A DNA stretch of 53,645 nt from a virus, in IMG/VR virus record IMGVR_UViG_3300030419_006157, positions 1 to 53,645 of that record. One strand, 5' to 3'. The number at the start of each line of letters is the position of its first letter. The stretch's first letter is position 1. The notes beneath the pieces were generated by a model that saw nothing but the letters and a program-made list of their open reading frames with translations, did no database searches and was not told where the DNA came from. Of this stretch, positions 849 through 52,496 are shown one piece after another. Position numbers and translations under genes: made by a program.

Positions 849-1078
849 TTGAGCTTTATATCAAACTTATCAAGGTTTTCTTCTATTTCCCGAATTGTAT
901 CATTGCCATAGTCTAGCACTCTTTTTCTGGCTTTTTGGTACACCTCATCAGGTATTTGAAGACCGGAATCTTCTAGGTCTTCAAGGATAAAAAGGAAGTT
1001 TTTATAGAGATTTGTGACTTTCCGCCTTACCTGAAAAGCCATAAAATCCCTAGAATTATTATTGGAGTCATCCAACAC
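845..1078 (-). CDS. Small helical protein after the tail-tube gene (putative tail assembly chaperone)
   Basis: This 77-residue protein begins with GTG at 1078 and has no recognised domain. It is charged and predicted helical by eye (for example IPDEVYQKARKRVLDYG). A late-type GTGTAA element lies 25 nt upstream and a purine-rich AAAAAGGA stretch lies between. The stop overlaps the start of the next gene (ATGA). Position between the tail-tube-like protein and a larger overlapping gene fits a tail assembly chaperone, but no slippery heptamer was needed or seen, because the downstream gene has its own ATG. Confidence 0.7.
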   Translation of the reverse strand: MLDDSNNNSRDFMAFQVRRKVTNLYKNFLFILEDLEDSGLQIPDEVYQKARKRVLDYGNDTIREIEENLDKFDIKLK

Positions 1079-1103
1079 CCTGTATCCTTTTTCCTAAGTA
1101 TTA

Positions 1104-1109
1104 TTACAC
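1104..1109 (-). promoter_or_regulatory. Candidate late promoter element GTGTAA
   Basis: Minus-strand GTGTAATAATA lies between the upstream terminator (1128-1157) and the GTG start at 1078. It belongs to the set of GTGTAA elements found before late transcription units in this window. Confidence 0.55.
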
Positions 1110-1127
1110 CATGTTTTCAAAAAATGC

Positions 1128-1157
1128 AAAAAAATAACCCCCCTCCGAAGAGGGGGG
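1128..1157 (-). terminator. Intrinsic terminator with TTCG loop
   Basis: On the minus strand an 8-bp stem CCCCCCTC-TTCG-GAGGGGGG is followed by TTATTTTTTT. It lies about 40 nt after the stop of the tail-tube-like gene. Confidence 0.9.
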
Positions 1158-1197
1158 CATGGTTTACATATGTCTTACTACTTAATTAATTTCTCAA

Positions 1198-2559: not shown

Positions 2560-2637
2560 AAGTTTATTCCTTTATAATAATTACATTTTTTTAGGTTAAA
2601 TGAGAAATATTTTCTCCTATTTTTATAAAAAAAACTG

Positions 2638-3567
2638 TTATTGTATATCTTCTCCTTGAGTAGCCTTTCTTGGGTATCTAGGTTTAGATATCTCAAAGTC
2701 TATTACACCATTAAATACGTCTGGGTTCATATTTTCTATCTTCAAATTAACATTTCTACTAAATTTCGCAATATTTACTTCGTCGATAAATACGAACTGA
2801 TCTTCAGACTTTTTACCAGTTATAAGTCCAGTGTATGAATATTTATCGTTATTCTTGTAAGAGCCGAGTGAATTAAACGGCATATCCGTAGTATTAAGCA
2901 AAGTAACATGGGTTCTGGATAAATCTCTAAATATTGAGCAAACCGCATCTAAAGCGTACTGAGAATCTGCCAAAACTACAGCCCTTAAATTAAATGTAGT
3001 TGAGTCATAGCCCCCAAAAGCAAGCGGCTCGTTTCTAGATCCATTATGCCTTAAGAATATAGCAGGATAAGTTATCGCATTGGTAGCTAACCCAGTTTGG
3101 CTTTCTGTAGTTTTTGGCGTTAAATTAAACTTAGTTTCGAATAAAAGTTTCTCTTCGGGCTCATTTGTAAGATAAACATTAAAGTCTTTTACCGCATATT
3201 CCCCGCTTATAGATGTATCTGGGTTTTGAACAGGGTAGGTCATATATACCTGACCTTGGTCGTAATTTATTCCAGATAACCCATTTGTCCCGACAGGAGT
3301 AAAAGTTCCACTCAAATAGACCCCTGTAGGAACATTTACAGTTTTAGATGAAGCTTTATTCGGGTATGCATTTCCAGTTCCAGTTACTGAAAAATCCGCC
3401 ACAAACTGCTTAAAAGGAGCCCCATATGTATAATAGCCATTAATTAAATTATCTACGGGATAAAAAGCGCCAGAGGTGTTTGTAAATGCTTCTCCACGCC
3501 TCACAAGATTATGGTCAAACCATAACAAAAAGCTAGACATCAATCTGTTGTCAAATTGCGGAAGCAT
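2638..3567 (-). CDS. Putative tail completion/terminator or minor tail protein
   Basis: This 309-residue protein starts at ATG 3567, one base after the stop of the preceding gene. It is beta-rich with many Asn, Thr and Tyr residues, and ends with a charged tail (RKATQGEDIQ). I do not recognise the family. It sits between neck-type proteins and the major tail protein, where phages encode tail terminator or minor tail proteins. That position is the only basis for the call. Confidence 0.6.
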   Translation of the reverse strand: MLPQFDNRLMSSFLLWFDHNLVRRGEAFTNTSGAFYPVDNLINGYYTYGAPFKQFVADFSVTGTGNAYPNKASSKTVNVPTGVYLSGTFTPVGTNGLSGINYDQGQVYMTYPVQNPDTSISGEYAVKDFNVYLTNEPEEKLLFETKFNLTPKTTESQTGLATNAITYPAIFLRHNGSRNEPLAFGGYDSTTFNLRAVVLADSQYALDAVCSIFRDLSRTHVTLLNTTDMPFNSLGSYKNNDKYSYTGLITGKKSEDQFVFIDEVNIAKFSRNVNLKIENMNPDVFNGVIDFEISKPRYPRKATQGEDIQ

Positions 3568-3568
3568 T

Positions 3569-4282
3569 TTAGACTCGTCCTAATTTACCTCTAGTGTCCG
3601 CAGGAGTCGAAGTTCCCGACTTACCACCTGCTAAATCCCGACTAAATTCATTATACAATGCACTAATATAACTAACTGGCCTATAACCGCCACTCCTTAA
3701 TGAGTTTTTAACCTGTACGGCAGTTCCAGATCTGCTGTTTTTAAAATTCTCATCTTCTACGTATAAATATGCTCCTAACCCTGAAATTCCGCTTTCTATA
3801 CCTTTTAGCCAGCTTTTCCCCATCCAAGGAACAGTCGATCTTGTGCTACTAAAAAGTTTACTCTTGGACATACCTACAACTTTCCAAGAGAATTCAAATC
3901 CTATGCGATCTCTCCCCTTCCCTACATTGCCCGTTTTTCTTACTCGTTTATGTGAACTCAAACGATGCTGATCAATCAGCGCCAAAACCTCACCTATAGG
4001 ATCACTCCCATCCTCAAAACCTATATAAGAAAATAAATTCCCATAACCACCTAAAGTGCCTGAAAGATTTTGCTCTTCCGGCCCTCCATCTATCTCTTGT
4101 GAAACAGGATGGTTTAATAGATTATTTTTAAATCTTCTTAGAGCTTGATTCAACTTAACTACAGCCTTGTCTCGAATCCTTTTCTCGGTTCTGCTGCTTA
4201 AATTGCCCCTTTTAGTAATCGCTTTAGACACGGCGGTTTGAAGAACAATTTTATTCCACTTTATTTTTCCTGATATTGGCAT
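3569..4282 (-). CDS. Putative neck/tail-joining protein
   Basis: A 237-residue protein if translated from ATG 4282, which lies one base after the upstream stop codon; an earlier in-frame start would overlap the upstream gene by 44 nt. The N-terminus is basic (MPISGKIKWNKIVLQTAVSK), with an Arg/Lys-rich region around residues 25-65 and a C-terminal Arg/Gly-rich end. Size, charge and place in the neck gene series suggest a tail completion or HK97-gp10-like joining protein, but no diagnostic motif was identified. Confidence 0.6.
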   Translation of the reverse strand: MPISGKIKWNKIVLQTAVSKAITKRGNLSSRTEKRIRDKAVVKLNQALRRFKNNLLNHPVSQEIDGGPEEQNLSGTLGGYGNLFSYIGFEDGSDPIGEVLALIDQHRLSSHKRVRKTGNVGKGRDRIGFEFSWKVVGMSKSKLFSSTRSTVPWMGKSWLKGIESGISGLGAYLYVEDENFKNSRSGTAVQVKNSLRSGGYRPVSYISALYNEFSRDLAGGKSGTSTPADTRGKLGRV

Positions 4283-4283
4283 T

Positions 4284-4730
4284 TTAGTTGGTATATTTAA
4301 GGTGGAATACGTAAAGCTTAACCCCAAAGAAATATTTTACAGATTCTTCTGTCATTAGTTGAAAGTCCTTTCCATCAACTACTATCTTTTCCGTTTTTCC
4401 GTTTTTAATGTAGTCTTTGCAATCTTCTTGGACCTTAATTCTTATGTCTCCGGCGAAATATCTAATTTGGGTCCCTACGTCTGACATCTCATCAGAGAAT
4501 TGCTCATCTTTATATTTAATCATGCCAGAGAAAGATTTATATACTGGCTCATAAGTATAATTAGCTTGCTGCGCTGAAGTCCCATACCCATACAAGAAAT
4601 CTGTGTTTATTTGAGATATTACTTTTTTAGACTCCTTATGAACAACGAAGTCCCTTTTGAAAGTATCAAATAGGTTTATGAAGTCGCCTGTAAAAGCGTT
4701 AACTTCTGTGGCTGAAACTAAACTCGCCAT
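4284..4730 (-). CDS. Putative head-closure (stopper) protein
   Basis: This 148-residue protein contains alternating beta strands and a conserved-looking region KSFSGMIKYKDEQ followed by GTQIRYFAGDIRIKV. The gene lies directly after the connector-like gene at 4733-5221, with two bases between them. Length and order (connector, stopper, joining protein, tail protein) match the standard neck module. The function is inferred from synteny, not from a recognised signature. Confidence 0.6.
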   Translation of the reverse strand: MASLVSATEVNAFTGDFINLFDTFKRDFVVHKESKKVISQINTDFLYGYGTSAQQANYTYEPVYKSFSGMIKYKDEQFSDEMSDVGTQIRYFAGDIRIKVQEDCKDYIKNGKTEKIVVDGKDFQLMTEESVKYFFGVKLYVFHLKYTN

Positions 4731-4732
4731 AA

Positions 4733-5221
4733 TTAAACCCTATTATAATCTCTGTTTGGTCTGTATACAGCAGCAACAGTATCATCCCCGGCAACTTGAA
4801 GGGGCTTAGTACCTCTTCTAACATATGCGGTAATCAATTTATAAAGCTCCTCATGATAAACGTTCCTCATCTGAAGATAGGTTTTTGATTGTTCGTTTTT
4901 ATTTATTTTCCTGATCGAAGAACCATCTGAAGACAAAGCGATAACAGCGTCTGTGGTGGCGGCGTTAATGGTATCTCTCAGTTTCCCATCAAAATGATGC
5001 ACCATATACATTTTTTTCATAATCACTACTTCTTCTGGCGCTATTTCTCGCGTCCCTTCTTCGATCTCAAAAGTGGAAGAATTTACATCAAAATCAGTAT
5101 TTAGATGATTATTTAAGGCTCCAATATTAGTCCTAACATAAAAAGCAATAGCGGGAATACTAAGATCCGAAGGAGCCCCCAACTCTCTATGGATTTCATC
5201 AGCTATATCGACTATTTTCAT
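4733..5221 (-). CDS. Putative head-tail connector (adaptor) protein
   Basis: This 162-residue, mainly helical protein starts MKIVDIADEIHRELGAP. The pattern of an N-terminal helix, a short hairpin (FEIEEGTREIAPEE) and long C-terminal helices is typical of head-tail adaptor proteins that bind under the portal. A GTGTAA element sits 8 nt before its ATG, so this gene may begin its own late transcript covering the neck and tail genes downstream. Confidence 0.6.
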   Translation of the reverse strand: MKIVDIADEIHRELGAPSDLSIPAIAFYVRTNIGALNNHLNTDFDVNSSTFEIEEGTREIAPEEVVIMKKMYMVHHFDGKLRDTINAATTDAVIALSSDGSSIRKINKNEQSKTYLQMRNVYHEELYKLITAYVRRGTKPLQVAGDDTVAAVYRPNRDYNRV

Positions 5222-5229
5222 AATAATAT

Positions 5230-5235
5230 TTACAC
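5230..5235 (-). promoter_or_regulatory. Candidate late promoter element GTGTAA
   Basis: Minus-strand GTGTAAATATTATT is followed immediately by the connector gene ATG at 5221. Eight bases separate the hexamer from the ATG, leaving no room for a normal leader if transcription starts about 7 nt downstream. Confidence 0.55.
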
Positions 5236-5241
5236 GCGATT

Positions 5242-5472
5242 CTACATTATTTGAGTATAGAATGGATATTTCCCATCAGGTATAGTAAGTCCGGGGGTAT
5301 TTAGCGACCTTTGAGTAGATAATTCAGCATCTATTTGAAGTCGCCGTCTTCTTTTTCTTCCGTCTGGGCCTAAAGGCCATCCCGGATCTGGAAGACTACT
5401 CAAAGAATTTATATCTTTGATCCTAGGGAAAGCATTTATATCTGTATATGGTAAGTTGCTAGTTCCAATCAT
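5242..5472 (-). CDS. Small Pro/Arg-rich protein in the neck module, unknown function
   Basis: This 76-residue protein has a central PDPGWPLGPDGRKRRRRLQ segment with six basic residues in seven positions. It is not recognised. The start at ATG 5472 is preceded at 8 nt by a GTGTAA element. Small basic proteins in neck modules can be head completion or DNA-contacting factors, but nothing here shows that directly. Confidence 0.6.
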   Translation of the reverse strand: MIGTSNLPYTDINAFPRIKDINSLSSLPDPGWPLGPDGRKRRRRLQIDAELSTQRSLNTPGLTIPDGKYPFYTQIM

Positions 5473-5480
5473 AAATGTTT

Positions 5481-5486
5481 TTACAC
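5481..5486 (-). promoter_or_regulatory. Candidate late promoter element GTGTAA
   Basis: Minus-strand GTGTAAAAACATTT precedes the ATG at 5472 with the same 8-nt spacing as the element at 5230-5235. It falls in the short gap after the methyltransferase gene. Confidence 0.55.
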
Positions 5487-5494
5487 TTTTCCTA

Positions 5495-6208
5495 TTATTT
5501 TTTACTTACGAAAAATATAGTGTCGAATTTCTCTTCTTGAACTAATCGTTTACCCAAGAATTTCTCTAGTCTAGGCACAAAGGTATTGGCATGTCTTTGA
5601 CATTCTGGGGGTATCGACTGGTGGGAGAATATCTCATTTACGTTAAACTTTTTGGACCCATCTGCAATCATCCTAAATTCTTCTGGGCTAAATTCTCTTA
5701 CGTGTCCATCTCTATTAATTCTTGGCGAGCCGCATTGAGGAACATCACCATGTAATATTTTCCTAAAGGCGAAAGGGCATACTCTATTTCTTGTAGTCAC
5801 ATAAAAAGTACCATTAGGCTTTAAAACTCTATGAGACTCATACCAAAAATTTAGAACCCCTTTCCAAGATAATTGGCCAGTATTATCTATTATCCATAAA
5901 TGCTCTATTGTTTCCCAACTAATTACCAAATCAAAAGAGTCATTCCTGAAAGGAAGTAAGTTCCACCTCATGTCTAAGTTGCTACTATTAACGCAATGAT
6001 ATTCTACGTCGCACTCAGACTTTATGTACTCCTCAAAGGAATAGCCATGACCTGACCCCTCCAAAGAACCACCTATATCTAATATTTTTTCCCCTCCTTT
6101 TATTATTTTTTTTAAGTATTTTACAGCATTAAATATTCTTCTTTTCCCATGATAGACATAACTAAATTTAAGAGAATCTTCCTTGAGTTTTTTAGCTAGG
6201 TTTTTCAT
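5495..6208 (-). CDS. Class I SAM-dependent methyltransferase
   Basis: This 237-residue protein has a Rossmann-type SAM-binding motif I (EKILDIGGSLEGSGHG, about residue 40) and a FDLVISWETIEHL motif typical of small-molecule or sugar methyltransferases. A VLKPNGTFYVTTRNR strand follows. Its ATG overlaps the stop of the sulfotransferase gene (ATGA). Linkage to a sulfotransferase and a glycosyltransferase suggests modification of a glycan rather than of DNA. The acceptor is not evident. Confidence 0.85.
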   Translation of the reverse strand: MKNLAKKLKEDSLKFSYVYHGKRRIFNAVKYLKKIIKGGEKILDIGGSLEGSGHGYSFEEYIKSECDVEYHCVNSSNLDMRWNLLPFRNDSFDLVISWETIEHLWIIDNTGQLSWKGVLNFWYESHRVLKPNGTFYVTTRNRVCPFAFRKILHGDVPQCGSPRINRDGHVREFSPEEFRMIADGSKKFNVNEIFSHQSIPPECQRHANTFVPRLEKFLGKRLVQEEKFDTIFFVSKK

Positions 6209-6873
6209 ATGAAAAGAGAATACTTTTCGAAATCTGGATCATTAAATAATCTTTCTTCTGTTTTTTCATGTATCCGATCATTTTCCCTGAACCACCTAAA
6301 CCCCTTATTGCTGCTTGCGTTTTGTTTTTCGATTGGAGTGTAGCCAATGCCTAACTCAGATCTTATAAAATCTTGCAAGTTAGAATGATTAAATTCTCTA
6401 ACGTCTTTTACTTCGTTAATATAATCCGGTAGGACCCAGAGATTTCTCAATGCTGTATCTATACATCGATGAATAAACACATCCATGTCCCACTCATGAG
6501 AATCTACCATAAGTGGGTTTTTCCCCGTCTCTAAGTGAACCTGTTTCGACCAACAATACAAAGAGCAAATAAGATCTTCAGGTTTCCTTATGAAGGTGAA
6601 AGTCGTCCATCCTTTTTCATTAAATTCGGATATAGTGCTCTTTGACCAAGCTATATGGTGATTATGTACGTAAGCTGGGCCTTCATCATTAGAAATTTCC
6701 GACAATTCTTCTTTAGTCCAATCTCTGCCTTTGTAAGTTTCAGGTAATCTTTTGACCCAAGAATTATAAATTTTGTAATCAGAATTATAGAAGGCCTTGG
6801 TTTCTAACCAGCGAGAGACATACGAGCCAGCGCACTTACCGAAATGGACAAAAGCTAATTTACTTTTTTTCAT
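6205..6873 (-). CDS. Sulfotransferase, stand-alone paralogue
   Basis: This 222-residue protein has a PAPS 5'-phosphosulfate-binding type motif near the N-terminus (LAFVHFGKCAGSYVSRWL) and a 3'-phosphate-binding type motif TFTFIRKPEDLICSLYCW around residue 92. Shared blocks with the first half of the 36920-38416 protein (GKCAG, RDWTKEEL, RNLW.LPDYI.E, NAS..KG) show the two are paralogues. It overlaps both neighbours by a few bases in a three-gene glycosyltransferase-sulfotransferase-methyltransferase set just after the fibre genes. It probably transfers sulfate to a sugar made or added by its partners. Confidence 0.8.
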   Translation of the reverse strand: MKKSKLAFVHFGKCAGSYVSRWLETKAFYNSDYKIYNSWVKRLPETYKGRDWTKEELSEISNDEGPAYVHNHHIAWSKSTISEFNEKGWTTFTFIRKPEDLICSLYCWSKQVHLETGKNPLMVDSHEWDMDVFIHRCIDTALRNLWVLPDYINEVKDVREFNHSNLQDFIRSELGIGYTPIEKQNASSNKGFRWFRENDRIHEKTEERLFNDPDFEKYSLFI

Positions 6874-8107
6874 TCATTAAAAAATTTATTTTATCTTTTA
6901 GGTAAAGAATTTCTTCTCTGTTTAAATTATCGTCTAAAAATTTATAAAATACATCTTTTATTTTTTGGTTCATGGTTATTATTCCCTGCCCAGCATTTTT
7001 AGATTTATAAATCCCATCGGTTAGATGAAGGTGAAAACTCTTCATGTCTTTGGGTATGTTAAAATTGTTTCTCCAAAATCCCCAATTATGTCTCCTATCA
7101 AAAATTCCCGTATCAAAAGCCTCATCTATATAGTTCATGCACTCCTGCTCATAAAATTTGGACCTAGTAAGATATAACTCCTTCCAATAATCTGGAAATG
7201 TATTATCGGCGCAAAATAAATATCCAGCATTAAAAAATCCATATTTCAGGCTATTTTGAGTGTTTTTTATACAATGATAATGAGGAGATAAAATGATTTC
7301 CTTGTTAAGGTTCTGATCGATTTTATCTACTAGGATTATATCGCAATCCAAGAAAAAAGTATTTCTATGATGACTCAAGGCAAAATCCATAGCTGCCATT
7401 TTCTGGAAAATGCATTCAACCCTATGGGGAGACTTAATCTCAGAGTAAAGCGTTTGAAAATGCTTCGACTTAACTTCTTTTAGTATATCCTCTTCAGCGT
7501 CTAATTTAAAAATTAAATTCTTAAGCTCTAATGAGTCAAAATATCTTTTAGTTTCCGTATCGCATATAACGTAAATTGGTAAGTCGTAAAAAAGATTAAC
7601 GCTTTCAATAAAAACTGCGCCCTCTCTCATTAACTCTTTAGTACATACGAAAGAAAAACTTTCTAAGTCTATATTTTCGGAATCACATTCCTGAGTTATG
7701 CAGATTTGAGACTCAAATTCATAATCATATTGAGACGATATTTTTTCTAACGAAGATTTAGCCAATATAGGGTCATAGCCTTGAGCCATTTTTAAAGGGG
7801 CGAATATAGAAGCGGAACAATAAATTCCATAATGTTCAATTATATCGAAAGACTTGTCTTCCTTGCTTATATCAGCAATCCAGAAAGCCCACTTCCTATT
7901 CTCCATTTTGTTTTCTATAGAGTTTAGGAGTTCGGACAAACCCTCAACAGTCTTTACTACTAGCAAAACAGAGATCGAATCGGGTGCAGTGCTAATCGTC
8001 CCCAAAGCGTTCTCTAGTATTTGGCTATTCTTAGGCTCATAAAGGTCATCTCTAATTTTTCGAAGACCTATTTTTTTCCCCTTGTATTGAAGTGTTATGC
8101 TCTCCAT
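6860..8107 (-). CDS. Putative glycosyltransferase (GT8/GT77-like, GT-A fold)
   Basis: This 415-residue protein has a C-terminal region with FFLDCDIILV, a DxD-type metal/nucleotide-sugar site around residue 250, followed by GFFNAGYLF, the pattern seen in GT8/GT77-like transferases. The first 200 residues are poorly conserved. It overlaps the preceding gene by 13 nt and the sulfotransferase gene by 14 nt, so the three are co-translated. It lies directly after the LamG-like fibre gene set, which makes fibre glycosylation an attractive but unproven role. Confidence 0.65.
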   Translation of the reverse strand: MESITLQYKGKKIGLRKIRDDLYEPKNSQILENALGTISTAPDSISVLLVVKTVEGLSELLNSIENKMENRKWAFWIADISKEDKSFDIIEHYGIYCSASIFAPLKMAQGYDPILAKSSLEKISSQYDYEFESQICITQECDSENIDLESFSFVCTKELMREGAVFIESVNLFYDLPIYVICDTETKRYFDSLELKNLIFKLDAEEDILKEVKSKHFQTLYSEIKSPHRVECIFQKMAAMDFALSHHRNTFFLDCDIILVDKIDQNLNKEIILSPHYHCIKNTQNSLKYGFFNAGYLFCADNTFPDYWKELYLTRSKFYEQECMNYIDEAFDTGIFDRRHNWGFWRNNFNIPKDMKSFHLHLTDGIYKSKNAGQGIITMNQKIKDVFYKFLDDNLNREEILYLKDKINFLMNEKK

Positions 8108-8334
8108 TCCTCTGAACTTAAGATGCTTAATATTTCTGATTGGGTGTATTCCGGTAAACCAATGTCATCCTCCGTAATTTTAAACACAAAGTCTGGCTGG
8201 TCCCCAAAGTATTTTATAACAACTTTCTCTTTATCTGGAGAATACCTCAATGTGGAATGGGAAGATTGCAGGACCTGATCAAAGTCTATCAAGTAAACAT
8301 CGTCGGAATTAATTATGCAATATTTAGTTTCCAT
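8095..8334 (-). CDS. Small fibre-linked conserved protein
   Basis: A 79-residue protein from ATG 8334, one base after the stop of the LamG-like fibre gene. Its sequence (CIINSDDVYLIDFDQVLQ, then LRYS, then FVFKI, ending YTQSEILSILSSEEW) resembles small proteins I associate with marine myovirus tail-fibre clusters. Their function is unknown; a fibre assembly or chaperone role is possible. A longer upstream in-frame start would overlap the fibre gene and is less likely. Confidence 0.65.
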   Translation of the reverse strand: METKYCIINSDDVYLIDFDQVLQSSHSTLRYSPDKEKVVIKYFGDQPDFVFKITEDDIGLPEYTQSEILSILSSEEWRA

Positions 8335-8335
8335 T

Positions 8336-10132
8336 TTACGCAGTACATGTCGCTTGTGTGCTATTAGCCGCTTGGTTCCCAACGTATTCAGTATCTCCAA
8401 TCATTGGTATAAAGGCAATATGAAAAGTTCTTGGGTCACAATTAGACGTAGTCGCAAGCTGTAAATTATCAGCGCCACAAGGACCTTCGGAAAAATCACT
8501 GCTTTTAAATAAGCCTTCAGCGTTCAAAAAAATGAAGCCATGAGTATTAATCGAAGGAGTCCCTCCGGTTGAAGCTATAGTTACTTTTAGTTTGTCGTAT
8601 GCAATAAGATCAGTTTCTCCAAAAACGCCTCTAGCCTTATAAAGCCAAGCCGTACTCATACTAGCGCAAACTGCTCCCAAGCTTGCACTAGCCGCTGCAC
8701 TTGCAGCGCCCATTACATGAACTATTTCATAATTAGCTGGATCTAATACATAAAATTCCCTAAGTAGTTCAAAGTTTTTTCTGATTTCAGACAGTTTAAG
8801 GGCTCGCTCATATACTATTAAATGCCCAACCTTAACATTCGAATCTGTCGCGGATGCAGCTATACTTTTGCCTAGTGTTATGGCGCAACTTTTTACACCT
8901 ACGTCACTACCATCCATGTAATACATTTGACTAACAAGACTTTGATTTATTGAGTATGAGGCAGAATCCACAGTATCACTAGGATTAGTGAATCTAAATC
9001 CATCGTATTGTTTATTTGTGTATGCGTTTATATGAGAGCCAAAAGCATTTAACTTAGGGTGAATTGTCATAGAAAACATATTCCAATGGTTAGTTTCCAA
9101 TTCAACATTAAGAGCTATTTTACCAGTTTTACCCGGAACTAAAACGTAAAAACGAGAAGCACCATTTTCAACTATAACACCAAACTCTATGTAGAATCGC
9201 TCTGATAGACCCTCTCCGGGCGCTTTTATATTTCCTATAGGATAAGAAGTATTACCTGTTTTTTTAGGAACATAAACCCATTGAGATACGGTGGTTGGCT
9301 TTTGCATGTTGATCGTAAAAGCAGACCCACCATAACCAGCACTTTGAGCCCCTATTTCATCATCAACCCCATCAAAACCAAAACACCTAACTGCTCTTCC
9401 GTACAGATTAACTGGACTTGCCATCCCAATATAGTTGTCTTCTATGCCATTATTGAGAAAAAGGTCTTTTGTGTTTCCAACATTTGTATCGTTTTCCCAT
9501 TTTAAATTTCCACTAGTTGTATCAACAGCGCCTATATCATCTGGATCAAACAGTCCTATCATATCAGGTGTATCATCTGAAGAGCCAAAGGTTAAAGACC
9601 CAGCAGAAGAAGGCGTTGGGGCAGAACCACTATAAATGACTTCCCCATCAGTAAAGTAAGTAGCTTGACCAGCAGAAAAACCATATATGAATGAACCATC
9701 TGAATTGAGAAAGGTAAGACCTATATCGCTTTCAGTGCCTACATCTGTACCGTCGTCTCCTCTAACATAGACAAGCGAGATTGACCCTGTGGCTTCTGTA
9801 GATATAGTATAGGTTTCGCTAAGGTGATCGTTATAAAAATCACTCCAAGTAACCCATACTTTGTCAGAAGCACCTTGGACAGTCATTAAATTGTTGCCTT
9901 CGTAAACCTCTACGTAAGGATGATTATAATACTCATCTCCCCAACCATCTCCCATCACATCAGTAACCTGTATGGTCATTTCCTCGGCGGAACTAGGAGT
10001 AGGGTAAGACACTAGGCCACTGGTAGGGTGTTGATTAGCGCCATTTTGATCCCTATAGAGCTTATGTTGGCTAGAAAACGTCTTGCCAATTGTAGCAACT
10101 TTAGGGCAGCTATGTATTCCAATAAAATCCAT
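8336..10132 (-). CDS. Large fibre/adhesin protein with LamG-like domain
   Basis: This 598-residue protein has an N-terminal beta-rich part containing VTDVMGDGWGDEYY, followed by a LamG/concanavalin-type jelly roll at about residues 190-460. Hallmarks are CFGFDGVDDEI, TTVSQWVYVP, NHWNMFSMTI and VGHLIVYERALKLSEIRKNF. The same domain order is seen in the 10632-11621 protein, so the two are paralogues. The C-terminus resembles fibre tips rich in Ala and Gly. Such domains typically bind host polysaccharide. The gene starts by TAATG overlap with the preceding gene. Confidence 0.75.
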   Translation of the reverse strand: MDFIGIHSCPKVATIGKTFSSQHKLYRDQNGANQHPTSGLVSYPTPSSAEEMTIQVTDVMGDGWGDEYYNHPYVEVYEGNNLMTVQGASDKVWVTWSDFYNDHLSETYTISTEATGSISLVYVRGDDGTDVGTESDIGLTFLNSDGSFIYGFSAGQATYFTDGEVIYSGSAPTPSSAGSLTFGSSDDTPDMIGLFDPDDIGAVDTTSGNLKWENDTNVGNTKDLFLNNGIEDNYIGMASPVNLYGRAVRCFGFDGVDDEIGAQSAGYGGSAFTINMQKPTTVSQWVYVPKKTGNTSYPIGNIKAPGEGLSERFYIEFGVIVENGASRFYVLVPGKTGKIALNVELETNHWNMFSMTIHPKLNAFGSHINAYTNKQYDGFRFTNPSDTVDSASYSINQSLVSQMYYMDGSDVGVKSCAITLGKSIAASATDSNVKVGHLIVYERALKLSEIRKNFELLREFYVLDPANYEIVHVMGAASAAASASLGAVCASMSTAWLYKARGVFGETDLIAYDKLKVTIASTGGTPSINTHGFIFLNAEGLFKSSDFSEGPCGADNLQLATTSNCDPRTFHIAFIPMIGDTEYVGNQAANSTQATCTA

Positions 10133-11624: not shown

Positions 11625-17976
<6,352 letters not shown>

Positions 17977-24912: not shown

Positions 24913-26094
24913 CTATTCTTCTGAGATGTCCCCTAATTTAGCCAATTCCTTAAGTTTTTCGTCAGGTCTGCCGATACCACTTATTGAAGTATAAACAATT
25001 AGATTCGGTTTATCTCCAACGTATATACCTCTATGAACTACATTTCCGGGGCGTAATAGCCTACAAAGCTGATCGAACGCTTGATCCAGAGCAGACTGAG
25101 GAATATTATCCAACTGCTCTTTTCCTCCAACGACTACAGCGCCAGCGTGACTTCCAGAAGACAAATCTATACCTCCGGATAAAAGACCGCTCTTGAAGTT
25201 ATCTCTCAAAGCTCTAGAGATACTCACTGGATCGCTCCATTCCTTAACTGGCGCAGCCCCAAAGACCATCAATCCAGAATCAAGAATAGTCTTATAATCA
25301 TTAGCATCAAAAGATGTGAATGAGCTATCCCTTGCCGCAGTAAGATTAAATAAATGGAATAATCCAGCCATACTCGCATTAGCAGTTTGCCAAAAATTAG
25401 AAACTACAAGATTGGGGTAAACCTTACCAATTCTCTCGTTATCAATTACTACCAAGGGGGAAACTTTCCCTTCCTCGACTAAATCGTAAACGTCATTTAA
25501 ACATTTGTGAGCATTGGCATTTACCTTTTTTCCTTCTGAAGCTTTTGGCAGAGCTAAAATCACCCCGACTTTATCGGTGGGAGCTTTAATCGTTTCTTGA
25601 AGCTCTTTTGCCGCCTCAACCAAACTAGTGACAGTACCAGATCCAGTACCACCGCCAGCGCCAGCGCAAACAAAGATTCTATCAAGGGTTTCGCCAAACG
25701 AATACCTCATAAAATCTACAACGTCTTCTTTTTTGCCAGAGAAAACTTTTTTTGCGTAATCTGGGTCTTTACCCGCTCCCCCATCTCCAATGCATAACTT
25801 ATGGGGAACTTTTTTAATGGTGTTCAAATCTTGCTGCGCCGTATTAAGAACAGCCACTTTTCTATAACCGAAATCATAGAACGTCTCAGCTATTCTTGAA
25901 CCTCCTTGCCCAGCGCCAATGAAAGCGAACTTAAAAGCGGTCTCTACTTCATCTTTTACTTCTTTTTCTGCCGCCAACTCCTCTTCCGGTTCGGGCATGG
26001 GGATATCAGGCATGGAAATATCAAATGACTCCCCCGGATTCATATACTCATTTACGCTTTGGCCTACTGGCTTATCTTGATTTTCTTCACTCAT
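24913..26094 (-). CDS. Phage tubulin/FtsZ-family GTPase
   Basis: This 393-residue protein has, after a 50-residue acidic, Pro-rich extension, FAFIGAGQGGSRIAETF (residues 57-71) and the tubulin signature AGAGGGTGSG (144-153). Later SFDANDYK (261-268) sits in the position of the FtsZ T7 catalytic loop; both acidic residues of NxDxxD are kept but the first Asn is Ser. The globular core is FtsZ-length and there is no obvious C-terminal FtsA-binding peptide. It should form GTP-dependent filaments. It lies between tail/portal genes and the lysis cassette, between a GTGTAA element and a terminator, so it appears to be a late, separately controlled gene. Confidence 0.9.
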   Translation of the reverse strand: MSEENQDKPVGQSVNEYMNPGESFDISMPDIPMPEPEEELAAEKEVKDEVETAFKFAFIGAGQGGSRIAETFYDFGYRKVAVLNTAQQDLNTIKKVPHKLCIGDGGAGKDPDYAKKVFSGKKEDVVDFMRYSFGETLDRIFVCAGAGGGTGSGTVTSLVEAAKELQETIKAPTDKVGVILALPKASEGKKVNANAHKCLNDVYDLVEEGKVSPLVVIDNERIGKVYPNLVVSNFWQTANASMAGLFHLFNLTAARDSSFTSFDANDYKTILDSGLMVFGAAPVKEWSDPVSISRALRDNFKSGLLSGGIDLSSGSHAGAVVVGGKEQLDNIPQSALDQAFDQLCRLLRPGNVVHRGIYVGDKPNLIVYTSISGIGRPDEKLKELAKLGDISEE

Positions 26095-29385: not shown

Positions 29386-31215
29386 TTATTTAATAACAAT
29401 CGGAGTAAAAGTTGTTGGAATCTGTTCTTCTTTTAGATTCTGGGAGTCATAATAACATTTTGTAGCCCAATTTGCTAACATTAGGGTCGTGTAATTATCT
29501 TTTCTAGCCCGAAGAGCAGATGTACTCCTTTTTAAATGCTGGGGCAAGTCAAAAGTTTGAGTCCCTTTCGCGGTTGACTTCACCTCAACTAAAGCACATT
29601 GCTTCTTAGTCTGATGTATAAGCGAGTCTTGAGTCTCTATAAAGTCTAGTATGTTGCTCTCGTTTACGTATTTCAAATCTATTTTTGAACCAGAATACTT
29701 ATTAAACGAATTTACGTTAGCTACCGTCTTAGAGCCGAACCATATCCTTTTATGGTCTATGCTGCTCTGTAAAAACTCATTAGCCTTTCTAAGCCATTCG
29801 CTTGTAAATATTTGTTTGAAGCAAATATAGCCAGTGTCCTTATTGTGATCCCTTTTAAGTTTTTTAATTTCTTTTTGGTAGTCTCCACCATCTTTATTGC
29901 TATCAAAGTCAATAAAGTTAATTTTTCTATTATCTCTTTTGAAATGCTCTGACTCATTTGCCCCATCTATAAACTGATATCCAGCGTTATCAATGCATAT
30001 CATTTCTATATTAAAATTCTTCATTATATAATGCAGATATTTTATATGGTCTTTTAAATTCCCCCCGGCAACAGCATAGCTATGCACTAAAGTTCCAGAC
30101 TTCGCTTCATCGTCCAACTCCAGCATAGACATGGCAAAATAATCGGAGCTAGGACTATTCGAAAATGAAGGGTCAATTCCCAAGACGTATTTTTTATCTT
30201 CGTCCCCTACTATTTTTGTAGTCGGGCTTTCTCCATCAGGGATAGTGCATAGGTGCATTTTCTTTGCGCTAAAGTAAGAGTCTGATCCATCAGTAAACTG
30301 AGCGCAATACTCCCTTAAGAATGAAGAATGAGAAGCTCCTCCATTTTGGGCTTCATCGATAATTGTTTTGTCTATCATCTCTTCCGGTAATGACTCATAC
30401 CCCATTTGAGATATAAAATATTTACCATCTGTTTCATCTTTAGATGTAATTTTATCTGTCCATTCTTGGTATGTTTTATATAGATTTTCAAAGGTATAAC
30501 TAGCAGATGATAGCGCTATCATTTTAGATGTATTCTCAAAAACCATCCTATCCTCTTCTTTCATCTTGCCCTCTTTAATGAGCTTGTCCTCAATTTCTTT
30601 TACTTCTAATCTCTCCTTCATGTTTTGAGGGGCCACCAAGAAAGGCATCAATACATTATTGATTATATCTTCAGGTATTAGAAGGTACTCATCCAGTACC
30701 AATATATTCGCACGAAAACCACGGATCTTTTCGCCGTTGAGAGGGATAGCTGTTATAGTTCCTTCGTTTATTTTCCACTCAAACTGGTCATTTCGTTTCG
30801 ACTTAGCGCCGAAAGCTTGAGCCAGTAATTCGGCCCCCTTGCTTTCTACAAGTTTTTCCAAGTTGTTAAAAATGAAACGAGCAGTACGAAACGTAGGTCC
30901 AGCTATCAATATTTTTGTTCCGGGATTAAATATGCACTGAAGAAAACAAAATACCGAAGCAATAAAAGTTTTACCGCAGCCACGACCCCAAACACACATA
31001 GAGAAATTTCTATTCATCATTCCTTTTAGAGTAATCTCTTGGAATGGGGCTAATTTTATACCGGATATTAATTCAGTGGTAACTCCTAAATTGCTTCTTA
31101 GAAATCTAGCCAAGCTAACCTTGGCTTGCTTGTCAGTTAACTCACCCTTGAGATTTAAAAGCTCCTTATTTAAATCAGGCAAATTCTGCTGGTATTTTTC
31201 TGGGGCGTACCACAT
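29386..31215 (-). CDS. terL: Terminase large subunit
   Basis: This 609-residue protein has a Walker A motif GRGCGKT (residues 77-83), Walker B ILVLDEY (171-177) and a coupling region MIALSSASYT. The RNase H-like nuclease domain begins with VLGIDPSFSNSPSSDY and has further acidic residues in MICIDNAGY. It is the packaging ATPase and nuclease that binds the portal. Translation is coupled to the nuclease gene upstream by a TAATG overlap. Confidence 0.95.
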   Translation of the reverse strand: MWYAPEKYQQNLPDLNKELLNLKGELTDKQAKVSLARFLRSNLGVTTELISGIKLAPFQEITLKGMMNRNFSMCVWGRGCGKTFIASVFCFLQCIFNPGTKILIAGPTFRTARFIFNNLEKLVESKGAELLAQAFGAKSKRNDQFEWKINEGTITAIPLNGEKIRGFRANILVLDEYLLIPEDIINNVLMPFLVAPQNMKERLEVKEIEDKLIKEGKMKEEDRMVFENTSKMIALSSASYTFENLYKTYQEWTDKITSKDETDGKYFISQMGYESLPEEMIDKTIIDEAQNGGASHSSFLREYCAQFTDGSDSYFSAKKMHLCTIPDGESPTTKIVGDEDKKYVLGIDPSFSNSPSSDYFAMSMLELDDEAKSGTLVHSYAVAGGNLKDHIKYLHYIMKNFNIEMICIDNAGYQFIDGANESEHFKRDNRKINFIDFDSNKDGGDYQKEIKKLKRDHNKDTGYICFKQIFTSEWLRKANEFLQSSIDHKRIWFGSKTVANVNSFNKYSGSKIDLKYVNESNILDFIETQDSLIHQTKKQCALVEVKSTAKGTQTFDLPQHLKRSTSALRARKDNYTTLMLANWATKCYYDSQNLKEEQIPTTFTPIVIK

Positions 31216-36919: not shown

Positions 36920-38416
36920 TTAGTTTTTGTTTTTTAACTTTTTTCTGTAAGTGAATGTTGCTTCTTGATCTTCTAGCCATTGAAGTAGGTTTTCGTTATC
37001 AATAGAAAAACCGTTTTTAATGTATTTCAATAATCTTCTATTATTACCCCTAGGATAAGCGTCTCGTATAGAGTTTCTAATTAAAATTTTATTAGTTATA
37101 TCATTCTCAAAGGTCGGATAACAAAAGAATTCTCCTTCGCTATCTAGTGCTGCCATTTCTATAGTAAAATCAAACCAACTAATACACTCTTGAGGGGTGG
37201 TGGCGTAACAAGTTGGGTCGCCAGACTTTCCGTCCCAGCACCCAATATCCATTGAATGATATTTATACTTTGCTCCTTGAGCTAAATGACCATATTCTTC
37301 TGGAACACCTTTTGTAGTTAGATCAAAGACTGCGCCACGATCTCTAGGTAATTCGCTAATAACTTTAAATTGTTTCCATTTTAAATAGTTAATAGTCTTA
37401 TCGCGCTCTTTTGTGTTTGGGAAAAATATATCTATATCTTTTGGCGTCATACCTCCAGTAACAAAGTAATCTCTTATAGCTCCACTAGCTATCCAAAAAT
37501 ATTTAGAGCCAGATTCCTTAATCAAATCAACAAAAGGCTTCAAGTGACTTTTTAGCCCTTCAACATTTATCGCTTTAACTTTAGCTTTATAGTTTAAATT
37601 GATTCTCTTGATTGGTTCATTCATTGTTTCAAATCCTCTAGTTAAAAACTTATCATATTTGCGATAGTCAGCATCCTTTTCTAGTCGTTCTTTTGTAGCT
37701 TCTGATATTTCTCCCGAATCGTAATAAAATTGGTATCCTTTACTCCCGCTGGCATTCTTCTTTTCCGCTGGGACATACTCATGGTGAAAATAATTTAACA
37801 AGAAATTTTTAAAATTATTATCGTTAAACTCTGCCACGTAGTTTATTTCATCTATGTAATCCGGCAATGTCCATAAATTGCGAGCGTCCTCATCTGTAAT
37901 CAAAAAATTAAAGAAAGTATCTAATGAAACTTTTCGTGGGTCCGACTGCCCCGACATTGATTCTATTTCTTTTCTTAAGGGGTTCGCCAAGTCTTCTGCG
38001 TCATGGCGCTTCCTTTGACTCTTTGACCAAGAGTACAAAGAGCAAATGATATCCTTTGGGTCTCTAAGGAATGTAAAAGTAAACCATCCATTGTCATTGA
38101 AGGCTTTAATGGTTTCAGGACACCAATTAATCATATGGTTATGGGCAAAGCCAGACTCAATATTTTTTGTAGCTATTTCCAGTAGCTCTTCCTTCGTCCA
38201 ATCTCTATGAAGGTTTCGCTTCACCTCTTTCTGGGAAAAGTCCCACCAAGAATTAAACTGAGGTATTTTTGGTATAACAAAATCTCGTAAATATTTTTGA
38301 GTATACACTCCCGCACATTTGCCATAGTGAATGAAAGCTATCTTTTTAGGCGCATGTTTCCAAAGACCCGTATTCGGATCTACTTCTCCCCCCTCAACTA
38401 CTGAACTTCGGCTCAT
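36920..38416 (-). CDS. Sulfotransferase-nucleotidyltransferase fusion
   Basis: This 498-residue protein is a two-domain fusion. Residues about 22-260 are a sulfotransferase paralogous to 6205-6873 (KIAFIHYGKCAGVY; FTFLRDPKDIICSLYSWSK; RNLWTLPDYIDEI). Residues about 280-498 contain SGAIRDYF...PKDIDIFFPN, the G..R...D.D pattern of polymerase-beta-type nucleotidyltransferases, and later SMDIGCWDG. One protein thus joins sulfate transfer with a nucleotidyl transfer domain, which I have not met before. Its stop and start overlap the lipoprotein gene by ATGA. Substrates are unknown. Confidence 0.75.
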   Translation of the reverse strand: MSRSSVVEGGEVDPNTGLWKHAPKKIAFIHYGKCAGVYTQKYLRDFVIPKIPQFNSWWDFSQKEVKRNLHRDWTKEELLEIATKNIESGFAHNHMINWCPETIKAFNDNGWFTFTFLRDPKDIICSLYSWSKSQRKRHDAEDLANPLRKEIESMSGQSDPRKVSLDTFFNFLITDEDARNLWTLPDYIDEINYVAEFNDNNFKNFLLNYFHHEYVPAEKKNASGSKGYQFYYDSGEISEATKERLEKDADYRKYDKFLTRGFETMNEPIKRINLNYKAKVKAINVEGLKSHLKPFVDLIKESGSKYFWIASGAIRDYFVTGGMTPKDIDIFFPNTKERDKTINYLKWKQFKVISELPRDRGAVFDLTTKGVPEEYGHLAQGAKYKYHSMDIGCWDGKSGDPTCYATTPQECISWFDFTIEMAALDSEGEFFCYPTFENDITNKILIRNSIRDAYPRGNNRRLLKYIKNGFSIDNENLLQWLEDQEATFTYRKKLKNKN

Positions 38417-39604: not shown

Positions 39605-40602
39605 AGATAATTCTAACAGGTGCAGCAGGGCTACTAGGTTGCCATCTTACAAGACATCTACTCAAAAAAGGGCATACTGTAATAGGTATAGATAATCTCT
39701 CTGGTGGATATAAAGATTTCTTGCCAGAAGATGAGAAGTTTCACTTTTTCAAATACGACTTGGGGGCAAATACTGATTCTCGCGAATTAATAAATAGCAC
39801 TTTTGATCAGTTCAAACCAGAAGTGGTGTACCACTTAGCCGCTTACGCAGCAGAAGGGCTATCCCCATTCATTAGAAACTACAATTATGTCAATAATGTC
39901 TTATCTTCTGTTAATTTAATAAATGCATGTGTTGAGTATGAATGTAAATTGATTTTTACATCCTCTATGGCTGTCTACGGGCAACAGAAGCCGCCTTTTA
40001 GAGAAGATATGAGGCCAAACCCTATAGACCCCTATGGGATTGCTAAATACGCCGTAGAAATGGATCTAGAGCAAGCACACAGGCAATTTGAGTTGCAATA
40101 TAATATAGTAAGACCTCATAACGTGTTAGGTACTTATCAAAATATCTGGGATAGGTACAGAAACGTAATAGGGATCTTTATTAGAAGGGCGTTAAACAAC
40201 GAGCCATTGAGAATTTACGGCGACGGAGAGCAAACTCGCGCATTTTCTGATATTTCTTATTATATGGAGCCATTTGAAAAGCTCATGGAGAATCATAACG
40301 GTGAAACCTTCAACATCGGGGCGGATAAATATTGGTCTATTAATGAAGTTGCACTACTTGTGCAAAAAATAGCATCAAAACACAACTATAATGTCCAAAT
40401 AGAGCACGTAGAGCCAAGACACGAGGCAAAACATGCTTATTGTGATCACTCCAAGGCTAAAGAGCTTTTAGAATTCAAAGATGAAACAAACTTAAATGTA
40501 TTAATTGAAGAAATGTTCAATTGGGCTATGGCTCAACCAAATAGAGAAGTAAAAGATCTTAAATATGAATTAACAAAAAATATATACTCCTATTGGAAAT
40601 GA
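39601..40602 (+). CDS. NAD-dependent nucleotide-sugar epimerase/dehydratase
   Basis: This 333-residue extended SDR has the Rossmann motif TGAAGLLG (residues 6-13) and the catalytic pair Y145-x3-K149 in PYGIAKYAVE, with SS(M)AVYG before it. It resembles UDP-glucose 4-epimerase and related enzymes. It would supply the sugar nucleotide used by the flanking glycosyltransferases. ATGA overlaps at both ends couple it tightly to them. Confidence 0.9.
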   Translation: MKIILTGAAGLLGCHLTRHLLKKGHTVIGIDNLSGGYKDFLPEDEKFHFFKYDLGANTDSRELINSTFDQFKPEVVYHLAAYAAEGLSPFIRNYNYVNNVLSSVNLINACVEYECKLIFTSSMAVYGQQKPPFREDMRPNPIDPYGIAKYAVEMDLEQAHRQFELQYNIVRPHNVLGTYQNIWDRYRNVIGIFIRRALNNEPLRIYGDGEQTRAFSDISYYMEPFEKLMENHNGETFNIGADKYWSINEVALLVQKIASKHNYNVQIEHVEPRHEAKHAYCDHSKAKELLEFKDETNLNVLIEEMFNWAMAQPNREVKDLKYELTKNIYSYWK

Positions 40603-50011: not shown

Positions 50012-50221
50012 ATTGTTAAAATTTGACCCTGAATTTCTTAAAATCAGCGAATTTCTCATCGGAGAAAACACCCCTTTTCACGAAATTTTTTCGACCCTAA
50101 ATTGACCCTAGATAGTTATTGACCCTGAAAAATAACACTTATTTGTTTAGCCCTGAAAAAGCCGACCGATTTATTTGACCCTAATTAAATCAGTTTATTT
50201 GAGCTAATTGACCCTAAAATA
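50012..50221 (+). other. Gene-free repeat tail between convergent units
   Basis: It holds six GACCCT motifs and three TTATTTG copies but no DnaA-box-like element or promoter. The motifs are present even where no plus-strand gene follows, so they do not need a downstream plus-strand promoter. Confidence 0.75.
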
Positions 50222-50834: not shown

Positions 50835-51015
50835 CGTTTTTTTTATTATCAAAAACCTTTTCGTCATCTAGGAAACCCTCGGTGGATAGGTATTTGAAAA
50901 TAGCCATTTGTCTTTCTTTGGTCATGCCCCCTTCGGAGCTAATTGAAATATTCTTGTTGGTTTTATCTAGTAGAACTTCTACTCCGTTTATCAATAAACA
51001 ATTTAAGGTACTCAT
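50809..51015 (-). CDS. Small protein, unknown function
   Basis: A 68-residue protein from ATG 51015 (MSTLNCLLINGVEVLLDKTN), with a helical C-terminus rich in Asp and Asn. It carries the promoter of the endolysin gene in its 3' end. Its own mRNA would begin with a stable hairpin. Confidence 0.65.
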   Translation of the reverse strand: MSTLNCLLINGVEVLLDKTNKNISISSEGGMTKERQMAIFKYLSTEGFLDDEKVFDNKKNVDNEDELW

Positions 51016-51021
51016 AAGATG

Positions 51022-51041
51022 CCCCAACCGTGAGGCTGGGG
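51022..51041 (-). promoter_or_regulatory. 5'-terminal mRNA hairpin
   Basis: CCCCAGCC-TCAC-GGTTGGGG (eight pairs, one wobble) would lie at the very 5' end of the transcript from the promoter at 51044-51071. Such hairpins can protect mRNA 5' ends from decay. There is no T-run, so it is not a terminator. Confidence 0.6.
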
Positions 51042-51043
51042 TA

Positions 51044-51071
51044 ATCGTAACCTTACTCTAGGTAAAGTCAA
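51044..51071 (-). promoter_or_regulatory. Early promoter TTGACT-16-TACGAT
   Basis: The -35 box overlaps the stop codon of the gene upstream. Unlike its neighbours it gives a leader of about 28 nt, which contains the hairpin. Confidence 0.65.
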
Positions 51072-51247
51072 GATTCAATTGGATCGCGTTTAACGATCTC
51101 GATTTGTGGGTCGTATCCATCATGATTGATAAGCATACTCCGAACATCTTCTAGTTCGCATGATGGTAGATAGAAAACCGTATCGATTTTCTCTTTATTG
51201 AGATAGACATCCCAACTCGTCATTACTTGGCTAACGTGTCTTAACAT
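51068..51247 (-). CDS. Small conserved phage protein (59 residues)
   Basis: ATG 51247 to TGA 51068. WDVYLNKEKIDTVFYLPSCE and VRSMLINHDGYDPQIEI match a pattern I know from many small marine phage proteins (VYLN..IDTVF...V...LINHDGY). Function unknown. It starts 6 nt after a -10 box. Confidence 0.75.
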   Translation of the reverse strand: MLRHVSQVMTSWDVYLNKEKIDTVFYLPSCELEDVRSMLINHDGYDPQIEIVKRDPIES

Positions 51248-51253
51248 GGCTCT

Positions 51254-51281
51254 ATTGTATCAAGGTTATTTTTATAGTCAA
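51254..51281 (-). promoter_or_regulatory. Early promoter TTGACT-16-TACAAT
   Basis: Directly follows the eight-T end of the large RNA. ATG 51247 lies 6 nt after the -10 box. Confidence 0.7.
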
Positions 51282-51282
51282 C

Positions 51283-51832
51283 AAAAAAAACAGTCTGCTC
51301 GTGCTTACTCGCCCCTAACAGGTCGCGTGTCCTGTTCGCTGCGTTAGTCCTGCCAAGGCTGTGTTTCGCCTCCGAGCAAACCTAGAGAGACACCATCGGC
51401 GGTTTCCCGTTTCCCCACCTTTCGGCTCCACTTTCTTCGTATAGTGGCATTTAAGGCTGCGCCTTTATTACAACGAGTATGTTTCTCTCCTGTTCCCTTT
51501 CGGGAAATTGCTGTCGGTGTGAGGGGCTCGAACCCTCCCCCGTCCCTATCGTGTCACCGTCTAGCTTCAATGCATCTCCACTAGGGGCTTTCAGCCACGG
51601 GCGGTATTGCGGTACTTAACGAAATTCGTCAGAGGTTATAACCGTAATACTTCCAGTCTCACCAACATAAATTGATTCCCACGGTTTTGTATGATGTAGT
51701 CTCCCTAGGGCTACGACGACTACAACCCGCGCCTGTATTAGCGCATCTTTGTCGTGGGCGTTGCAAGATCTGGGCATCTAGTGACGGAGGGCGTTAGTAC
51801 CGAACCGTTTAGGGCATCATCCCCTGCAACTG
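51283..51832 (-). ncRNA. Large structured RNA, about 550 nt (GOLLD/ROOL-like in style)
   Basis: No credible reading frame fits, but nested complementary segments do. Pairs by plus-strand position: 51760-51765/51825-51830; 51811-51814/51822-51825; 51729-51732/51741-51744; 51695-51701/51718-51724 (7 bp); 51515-51519/51555-51559 enclosing 51521-51525/51533-51537; 51493-51497/51502-51506 with GAAA loop; 51385-51390/51484-51489 closing a multi-branch; 51453-51457/51461-51465; 51428-51432/51443-51447; 51317-51322/51331-51336; 51296-51301/51373-51378. Two more GAAA loops are at 51403-51406 and 51420-51423. A sigma70 promoter precedes it and eight Ts end it. The arm at 51521-51537 looks like a tRNA T-arm (loop TTCGAGC). 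The family is not identified. Confidence 0.7.
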
Positions 51833-51837
51833 ATATT

Positions 51838-51866
51838 AACTTACTACAATTAGTTTCGTAAGTCAA
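51838..51866 (-). promoter_or_regulatory. Promoter for the large RNA, TTGACT-17-TAAGTT
   Basis: Lies in the only AT-rich linker of the 0.8-kb RNA region. Predicted start near 51831 coincides with the first outer helix (GTTGCA). Confidence 0.55.
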
Positions 51867-51896
51867 CACTTTTTTTAAATTAATGAGAGAGAGGAT

Positions 51897-52080
51897 TTCT
51901 TGTTTGCCTCCAACGTTTTCGGGGTCACAGCCAAGATAGTTCAAGTCTGTCCCTACTTCGAGCCAACCTTACAGACCCCCAAGAGATTGGTGATCTCCTA
52001 GTCCGTAACATTGCACCTTAGCTGCTATGACAACAGCTTATTCGGTCACTCTCTTAGGGTCTCCGTCGAGTCCCTAAATT
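51897..52080 (-). ncRNA. Second structured RNA block, possibly 5' part of the large RNA
   Basis: Between the stop at 52092 and the promoter-like linker are four more hairpins on the minus strand: 52054-52059/52072-52077 (TTAGGG/CCCTAA), 52020-52024/52034-52038 (AGCTG/CAGCT), 51983-51987/51993-51997 (GAGAT/ATCTC) and 51945-51950/51971-51976 (GTCTGT/ACAGAC). It may be the 3' UTR of 52092-52496, a separate RNA, or the 5' domain of one RNA of about 800 nt. No reading frame looks real. Confidence 0.5.
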
Positions 52081-52091
52081 ATTTAAAAGAA

Positions 52092-52496
52092 CTACTTATC
52101 TTCTTTTACGATGTACACCTTCTGTCCATCGATAAAGACATCCCTTGCATAATGCACGGGCTCCTTTGTTTTAACGTCTACAAAGGATTCATACTTATAA
52201 GGATTATAAGTCACCTGCCTAAGCGTCTTAGGCTTCCTAGCTTTACGCTCCTCTAAAGATTTAACCTTACCTAGATCGTGAACATAACCGCGCACGGTTG
52301 CGTGGACGTTCTTCCGTCTGGTTTCTAAAACTCTCTGCCTTCCCGCTTCGCTAACATTAAAGTCTATGCGCCCATAATGACCCTTCTTACCAACTATCCT
52401 TATAGCGTGGGTATGCTTTACAACAAGGCCCGTTTTGCGATCTTTCACGCTCAAGCACTTCTTATGTAAGTTGTAATATACTTCTACTGCCCTCAT
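52092..52496 (-). CDS. Conserved phage protein, unknown function
   Basis: This 134-residue basic protein begins MRAVEVYYNLHKKCLSVKD, with a central EAGRQRVLETRRKNVHATVRG that resembles a conserved hypothetical family of T4-like and cyanophages. Lys/Arg-rich, strand-helix pattern. It starts 9 nt after an early -10 box. Function unknown. Confidence 0.75.
   Translation of the reverse strand: MRAVEVYYNLHKKCLSVKDRKTGLVVKHTHAIRIVGKKGHYGRIDFNVSEAGRQRVLETRRKNVHATVRGYVHDLGKVKSLEERKARKPKTLRQVTYNPYKYESFVDVKTKEPVHYARDVFIDGQKVYIVKEDK

Follow-up and report, generated by a model that had tools for sequence, protein, structure and literature searches.

The minus strand of a 53,645-nucleotide stretch of viral DNA (IMG/VR record IMGVR_UViG_3300030419_006157, positions 1 to 53,645; hereafter the window) carries, at 51283-51831, a noncoding RNA gene of about 550 nt, in which five self-closed modules follow each other in the order F-H-X-B-I. 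Sequence comparison supports the region as a genuine noncoding RNA gene that had been absent from catalogues until now, and its best reading is a new modular RNA restricted to phages. GOLLD, ROOL and similar large phage noncoding RNAs are abundant and unexplained. The family of module X is unlisted; its sequences reveal which modules it is built from, how they are ordered and how phages exchange them, and the recognisable tRNA-like surface of its core leads to a short list of host partners. The elements of the locus are the following.

51880-52073, minus: probable divergent manA RNA (RF01745), upstream neighbour lying outside the 550-nt transcript
51838-51866, minus: promoter-like element TTGACT-17-TAAGTT, read from the sequence
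51760-51830, minus: module F, closed by GTTGCA/TGCAAC (51825-51830/51760-51765; helix checked)
51678-51758, minus: module H, closed by CCCACG/CGTGGG and holding a 7-bp stem (51718-51724/51695-51701; helices checked)
51512-51666, minus: module X, tRNA-like, 155 nt, central; nine copies in nine phage contigs, window included
51660-51666/51513-51519, minus: acceptor-like helix of X, 7 bp
51646-51650/51604-51608, minus: helix P2 of X
51609-51645, minus: element M (GTTATAACCTCTRACG...CGTTAAGTACCGC), nested in the P2 loop of X (sequences and pattern scan)
51597-51601/51539-51543, minus: helix P3 of X
51581-51584/51561-51564, minus: base of P4 of X
51521-51537, minus: T-arm of X, loop TTCGAGC
A51512, minus: discriminator-like base of X
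51495-51504, minus: small GAAA hairpin CCC-GAAA-GGG linking X and B (from sequence)
51384-51490, minus: module B, closed by GAGAGA/TCTCTC, with relatives in contigs G005 and G006
51283-51381, minus: module I and 3' end, a 9-bp helix GTTTGCTCG/CGAGCAGAC (51373-51381/51293-51301) followed by TG and T8, terminator-like

The 550-nt locus and its transcription signals

An earlier note on this DNA had proposed a large, ornate RNA on the strength of its many perfect helices. The helices 51718-51724/51695-51701, 51484-51489/51385-51390 and 51825-51830/51760-51765 are indeed present and pair perfectly, and the one placed at 51373-51378/51296-51301 also exists, its true length being 9 bp (51373-51381/51293-51301). 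Their abundance, offered as evidence, is that of chance: the RNA contains 33 helices of at least 5 bp (35 in shuffled sequence), 10 of at least 6 bp (8.2) and 2 of at least 7 bp (2.1), and the fold energy of the 550-nt region has a z-score of −0.87, 16 of 100 shuffles folding as well. Since both measures stay at the shuffled level, the earlier description is correct but statistically empty, and helix counting and fold energy were rejected as proof of a structured RNA; the gene is accepted instead because X is conserved and covarying and B is conserved. Together these two modules make up about half of the 550 nt, whereas no relatives were found for F, H and I, which are unique to the window and whose folds are unproven predictions from a single sequence, of a kind that chance would give likewise.

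The locus appears to encode no plausible protein, as had been claimed, and its relatives share no conserved reading frame. The P2 loops of the X copies differ in length by non-multiples of three, and a short ATG frame opening X (MLVRLEV...) is absent from loci L111 and L161; both observations argue against a conserved frame, and the latter candidate was rejected.

The element TTGACT-17-TAAGTT (51866...51838) and the eight T (51290-51283) are both found as described; of the promoter claim itself, the promoter-like element stands, while its score lies below the threshold of a strict consensus scan. The start predicted from it lies near A51831, a single base ahead of the closing helix of F, and the same hexamer arrangement precedes the X-bearing RNAs of G003, G004 and G006. 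Upstream of X in G002 and G007, the promoter-like elements TTGACA-17-TACTGT and TTGACC-17-TACTCT, whose -10 hexamers hold only 3 of 6 consensus bases, place +1 on the first base of the X acceptor helix, so that X can be its own transcript. We infer that the 550-nt RNA is expressed from a promoter as an autonomous molecule.

The position of the RNA upstream of a small gene on the same strand (from 51247), next to a manA family that Rfam lists as cis-regulatory, would also fit a cis-acting 5' leader controlling that gene; against this reading, which we hold to be the least probable of those considered, stand the terminator-like end, the separate promoter-like element of the downstream gene (51281-51254), located between it and the RNA, and the unrelated sequence that follows X in relatives.

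Fold and covariation of module X

Comparison shows that the RNA structure of X is conserved and includes the acceptor/T-arm half of a tRNA, the variable stem P2 taking the place of the anticodon arm and P3/P4 that of the variable region. Its T-arm-like hairpin with the loop TTCGAGC (51537-51521), mentioned in passing by the earlier note, proved to be the key feature: the arm follows the motif TTCGARY, and the TTCGA of its loop and a TGG at the D-loop position are invariant across the copies, a pair that would suit a D-loop/T-loop contact. There is no anticodon arm in X; the stem and loop of P2 vary freely in sequence and length, the loop measuring between 7 and about 75 nt. The P3/P4 domain is large and conserved, with the core GAAAGCC...GGUGACACGAUA; most copies have CTAG/CTAG in P4, and L007 and L082 have CACGC/GCGTG. 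Six of the seven acceptor pairs form in the L161 copy, and window-type copies have one extra base between T-stem and acceptor.

Covariation, which the earlier note had left to be checked in homologues, is present in X. Eight distinct sequences, cut by hand to the paired core (7-bp acceptor, 5-bp P2, 5-bp P3, 5-bp T-stem and 7-nt loop), give a score of 0.594 against a shuffled mean of 0.184, a value as high being reached in 0 of 500 shuffles; sliding controls all remain below 0.14. Compensatory changes occur in 12 of the 22 pairs of these sequences, and 98.9% of the alignment cells are paired, a percentage favoured by taking out the core with the structure in mind. The covariation falls in the acceptor, P2, P3 and T-arm helices; in particular, the changes in P3 (GC/UA; UA/AU/CG), T-stem (GC/UA; AU/CG; GC/AU) and acceptor (UA/CG/GC) sit inside otherwise highly similar sequence.

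Distribution of X and its exchangeable neighbours

Besides the window, X was found in eight IMG/VR phage contigs, and the phages carrying it all belong to one loose group. The search started from the upstream protein gene (52092-52496, Pfam Phage_L5_gp82), which gave 80 phage loci. The five closest (L002-L006) share this gene and manA at 94-98% and diverge exactly at the start of the 550-nt RNA locus, the RNA being absent from the corresponding place in each; L007 (contig G001) has an X-matching piece between gene and manA. Patterns made from this piece located X in L082-L085, L111 and L117 and in the 158-kb contig G005 (133003-133158), and the L161 copy was reached via a further module, D. 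Searched with a profile of eight copies, each of the nine records scores an E value of 1e-23 or better, and no other searched locus gives a convincing match, so that known copies separate from noise.

Pattern matches in L086, L087, L152-L160 and most of L101-L127 were put down to chance; most of them fall within coding DNA. Among GTDB species genomes the X pattern yields nothing beyond a chance hit, and DNA searches with the 861-nt region and with the G001 copy give only chance-level matches in named phages. An intergenic stretch of L104 (3279-3322) reads GAAAGTAAAGCC-hairpin-ACGGTGACACGAT and resembles the P3/P4 core of X (GAAAG...GGTGACACGAT), with no T-arm beside it.

The company of X differs from phage to phage. 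The order is X-B in the window, where the small hairpin lies between the two, and in G005, where B directly follows X on the 3' side; it is X-M-B in G006, X-manA in G001, and X-D in G003, G004, G007 and L161. Element M, nested in the P2 loop of the window copy, stands free between X and B in L117. As X has different neighbours in different phages, the RNA is, to judge by these arrangements, a mosaic in which X is combined with differing modules; several module borders show AATTT-like linkers on direct reading. The large multi-branch design proposed earlier thus holds for a structured phage RNA and fails for a fixed architecture, the relatives being modules variously combined around a tRNA-like core of about 155 nt. 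Module B is near-invariant in three phages, G005 and G006 being 94-95% identical to the window; the copies are too similar for covariation to reveal its structure.

Module D (CCTCAACCGGACGCAG...AAGCCGTGG) is another unlisted structured RNA; its five copies show three compensatory pairs.

L083 2725-2815: module D
L082 6878-6968: module D
L111 8373-8463: module D
L161 5041-5131: module D
L084 11682-11772: module D

The manA RNA, which adjoins X RNA in the window and in G001, is unrelated to X in sequence and fold and is a separate element. It matches the full model with 45.2 bits (E 4e-10; gathering cut-off 55.2) in the window, 53.9 bits in G001 and 49.1 bits in G005; manA is a phage RNA of unknown function (PMC2864571). 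It lies 3' of the gp82-like gene, not in a 5' UTR. The window and G005 agree at 97.7% over a 611-bp island comprising both (window 51877-52487; L002 6010-6620) and differ in its flanks, and gene and manA seem to travel as one cassette.

Comparison with known RNAs and candidate roles

In line with the earlier proposal of a new class, the RNA lies outside Rfam: no match at gathering level occurs in the region, and a relaxed scan yields manA as the only convincing match. Membership of GOLLD or ROOL, suggested as an alternative, was not borne out, as neither GOLLD (RF02032) nor ROOL (RF03087) matches up to E=10 in 51000-52200. In the whole window record GOLLD has no match, and across the nine X-bearing records its model finds only 7-10-bit fragments in two relatives, with matches in control genomes too; the ROOL model finds none in these records, a search that is weak alone because control genomes gave no match either.

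GOLLD and the window RNA are both large structured phage noncoding RNAs with more and less conserved parts (PMC12286853). GOLLD often exceeds 800 nt and has a conserved 3' region, whereas the window RNA has about 550 nt, with its conserved parts central, tRNA-like and flanked by neighbours exchanged between phages. ROOL, of 574 model positions, is likewise a large phage or prophage noncoding RNA without known function; unlike it, the window RNA is modular instead of fixed and does not lie by a tRNA island. Phage location, size and complex fold, together with the tRNAs at times found in the GOLLD linker (PMC12286853), would suit an ornate RNA of this type assembling into an oligomeric cage; given the lack of model matches, an architecture that is not fixed across relatives and a window without tRNA genes (ARAGORN), we judge such a cage very unlikely. 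Where tRNAs may belong to the GOLLD locus, the window RNA has none nearby and X is tRNA-like only.

X shares with tRNA a 5-bp T-arm with a TTCRANY loop and a 7-bp acceptor. Identity with tRNA was rejected: neither ARAGORN nor the Rfam tRNA model finds a cloverleaf, and the anticodon arm is missing. The D-loop without D-stem, T-arm and acceptor are also the arrangement of tmRNA (RF00023), and the extent of the likeness bears on whether X is a tmRNA derivative whose messenger part has been lost and whose ribosome-linked role (SmpB or ribosome binding) persists. The stemless D-loop (CUGG) agrees with such a descent, as do a weak Rfam match to the G005 copy (16.9 bits, E 0.003, the best for any X; gathering 47) and a complete tmRNA elsewhere in G005 (63676-64080, minus; third pair GU, the G3-U70, and CCA). 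Scanned alone, however, that copy drops to 8.8 bits and E 0.2. Moreover, X has no G3-U70 (its third pair is UA, UG, CG or GC), CCA or resume codon, and no tag frame is found by ARAGORN or common to the P2 loops; an extra P3/P4 domain separates P2 from the T-arm, and its 130-205 nt compare with about 370 nt for tmRNA. Identity with tmRNA was therefore rejected for want of G3-U70, CCA and tag frame, and descent from it is in our estimate decidedly unlikely. The G005 tmRNA (IMGVR_UViG_3300020477_000001) has an unusually long tag, ANNNVDMAPSVAEADAILAKHGWAEEAAVAA.

YrlA-type bacterial Y RNA is another RNA with a tRNA-like domain; X differs in having the acceptor/T-arm half without a D-stem. A search for a Ro60/TROVE gene, in which the control genome Deinobacterium matched, gave none in eight X-bearing records, which may be fragments.

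That the locus is a phage gene for a modular RNA in which X acts in trans as a tRNA mimic is a reading to which we give about an even chance. Transcription would run on the minus strand from the promoter-like element (51866-51838) to the helix and T8 at 51301-51283; X would then offer a tRNA elbow and acceptor stem to a host tRNA-binding factor, candidates being RNase P, RNase Z, EF-Tu, a synthetase or a tRNA-targeting defence nuclease for which X would be a decoy, and specific activity would come from the P3/P4 core and the exchangeable modules. Action in trans by mimicry of the tRNA acceptor/T-arm is what we infer from the fold. CCA is encoded in these phages' own tRNAs and in the G005 tmRNA and is missing from the X copies, which argues against direct charging of X; charging or EF-Tu binding would need prior 3' processing.

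A 7 + 5 bp helix bearing a T-loop suffices as an RNase P substrate, and X might accordingly serve mainly as a processing mark, at which RNase P and RNase Z (or exonucleases) free flanking RNAs like tRNA punctuation. Its place between structured modules in the window, G003-G006 and L161, and between gene and manA in G001, would suit this role. X begins at the predicted transcription start in G002 and G007, where no 5' processing is needed, which argues against a mere mark, and the large invariant P3/P4 core would be superfluous for processing; we consider this explanation rather unlikely. The preferred trans-acting mimic can be widened to a new phage RNA class that arises by exchange of structured cassettes around an anticodon-less tRNA mimic as hub, capturing host tRNA-handling or tRNA-attacking proteins during infection, a tentative proposal that we hold to be less likely than not.

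The X-bearing genomes have many noncoding gaps of more than 500 bases, and more such noncoding RNAs are therefore likely there. G004 (353-8948) and G005 (118986-121905, 132900-136089) contain stretches as long as 3.7 kb in which no reading frame reaches 80 aa, some of them repeat-rich. A noncoding element of 45-60 nt (GCATCGGAGAAAACACCCCTTT type) is shared by six of these phages, on one strand or the other.

Window 50034-50094: GCATCGGAGAAAACACCCCTTT-type element
G004 40293-40353: GCATCGGAGAAAACACCCCTTT-type element
G003 38314-38368: GCATCGGAGAAAACACCCCTTT-type element
G001 25882-25940: GCATCGGAGAAAACACCCCTTT-type element
G006 29428-29479: GCATCGGAGAAAACACCCCTTT-type element
G007 8088-8131: GCATCGGAGAAAACACCCCTTT-type element

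Elsewhere in the window, the minus strand at 11625-17585 encodes a 1986-aa protein, probably a fibre, with an N-terminal part packed with collagen-like GPTGPTG repeats.
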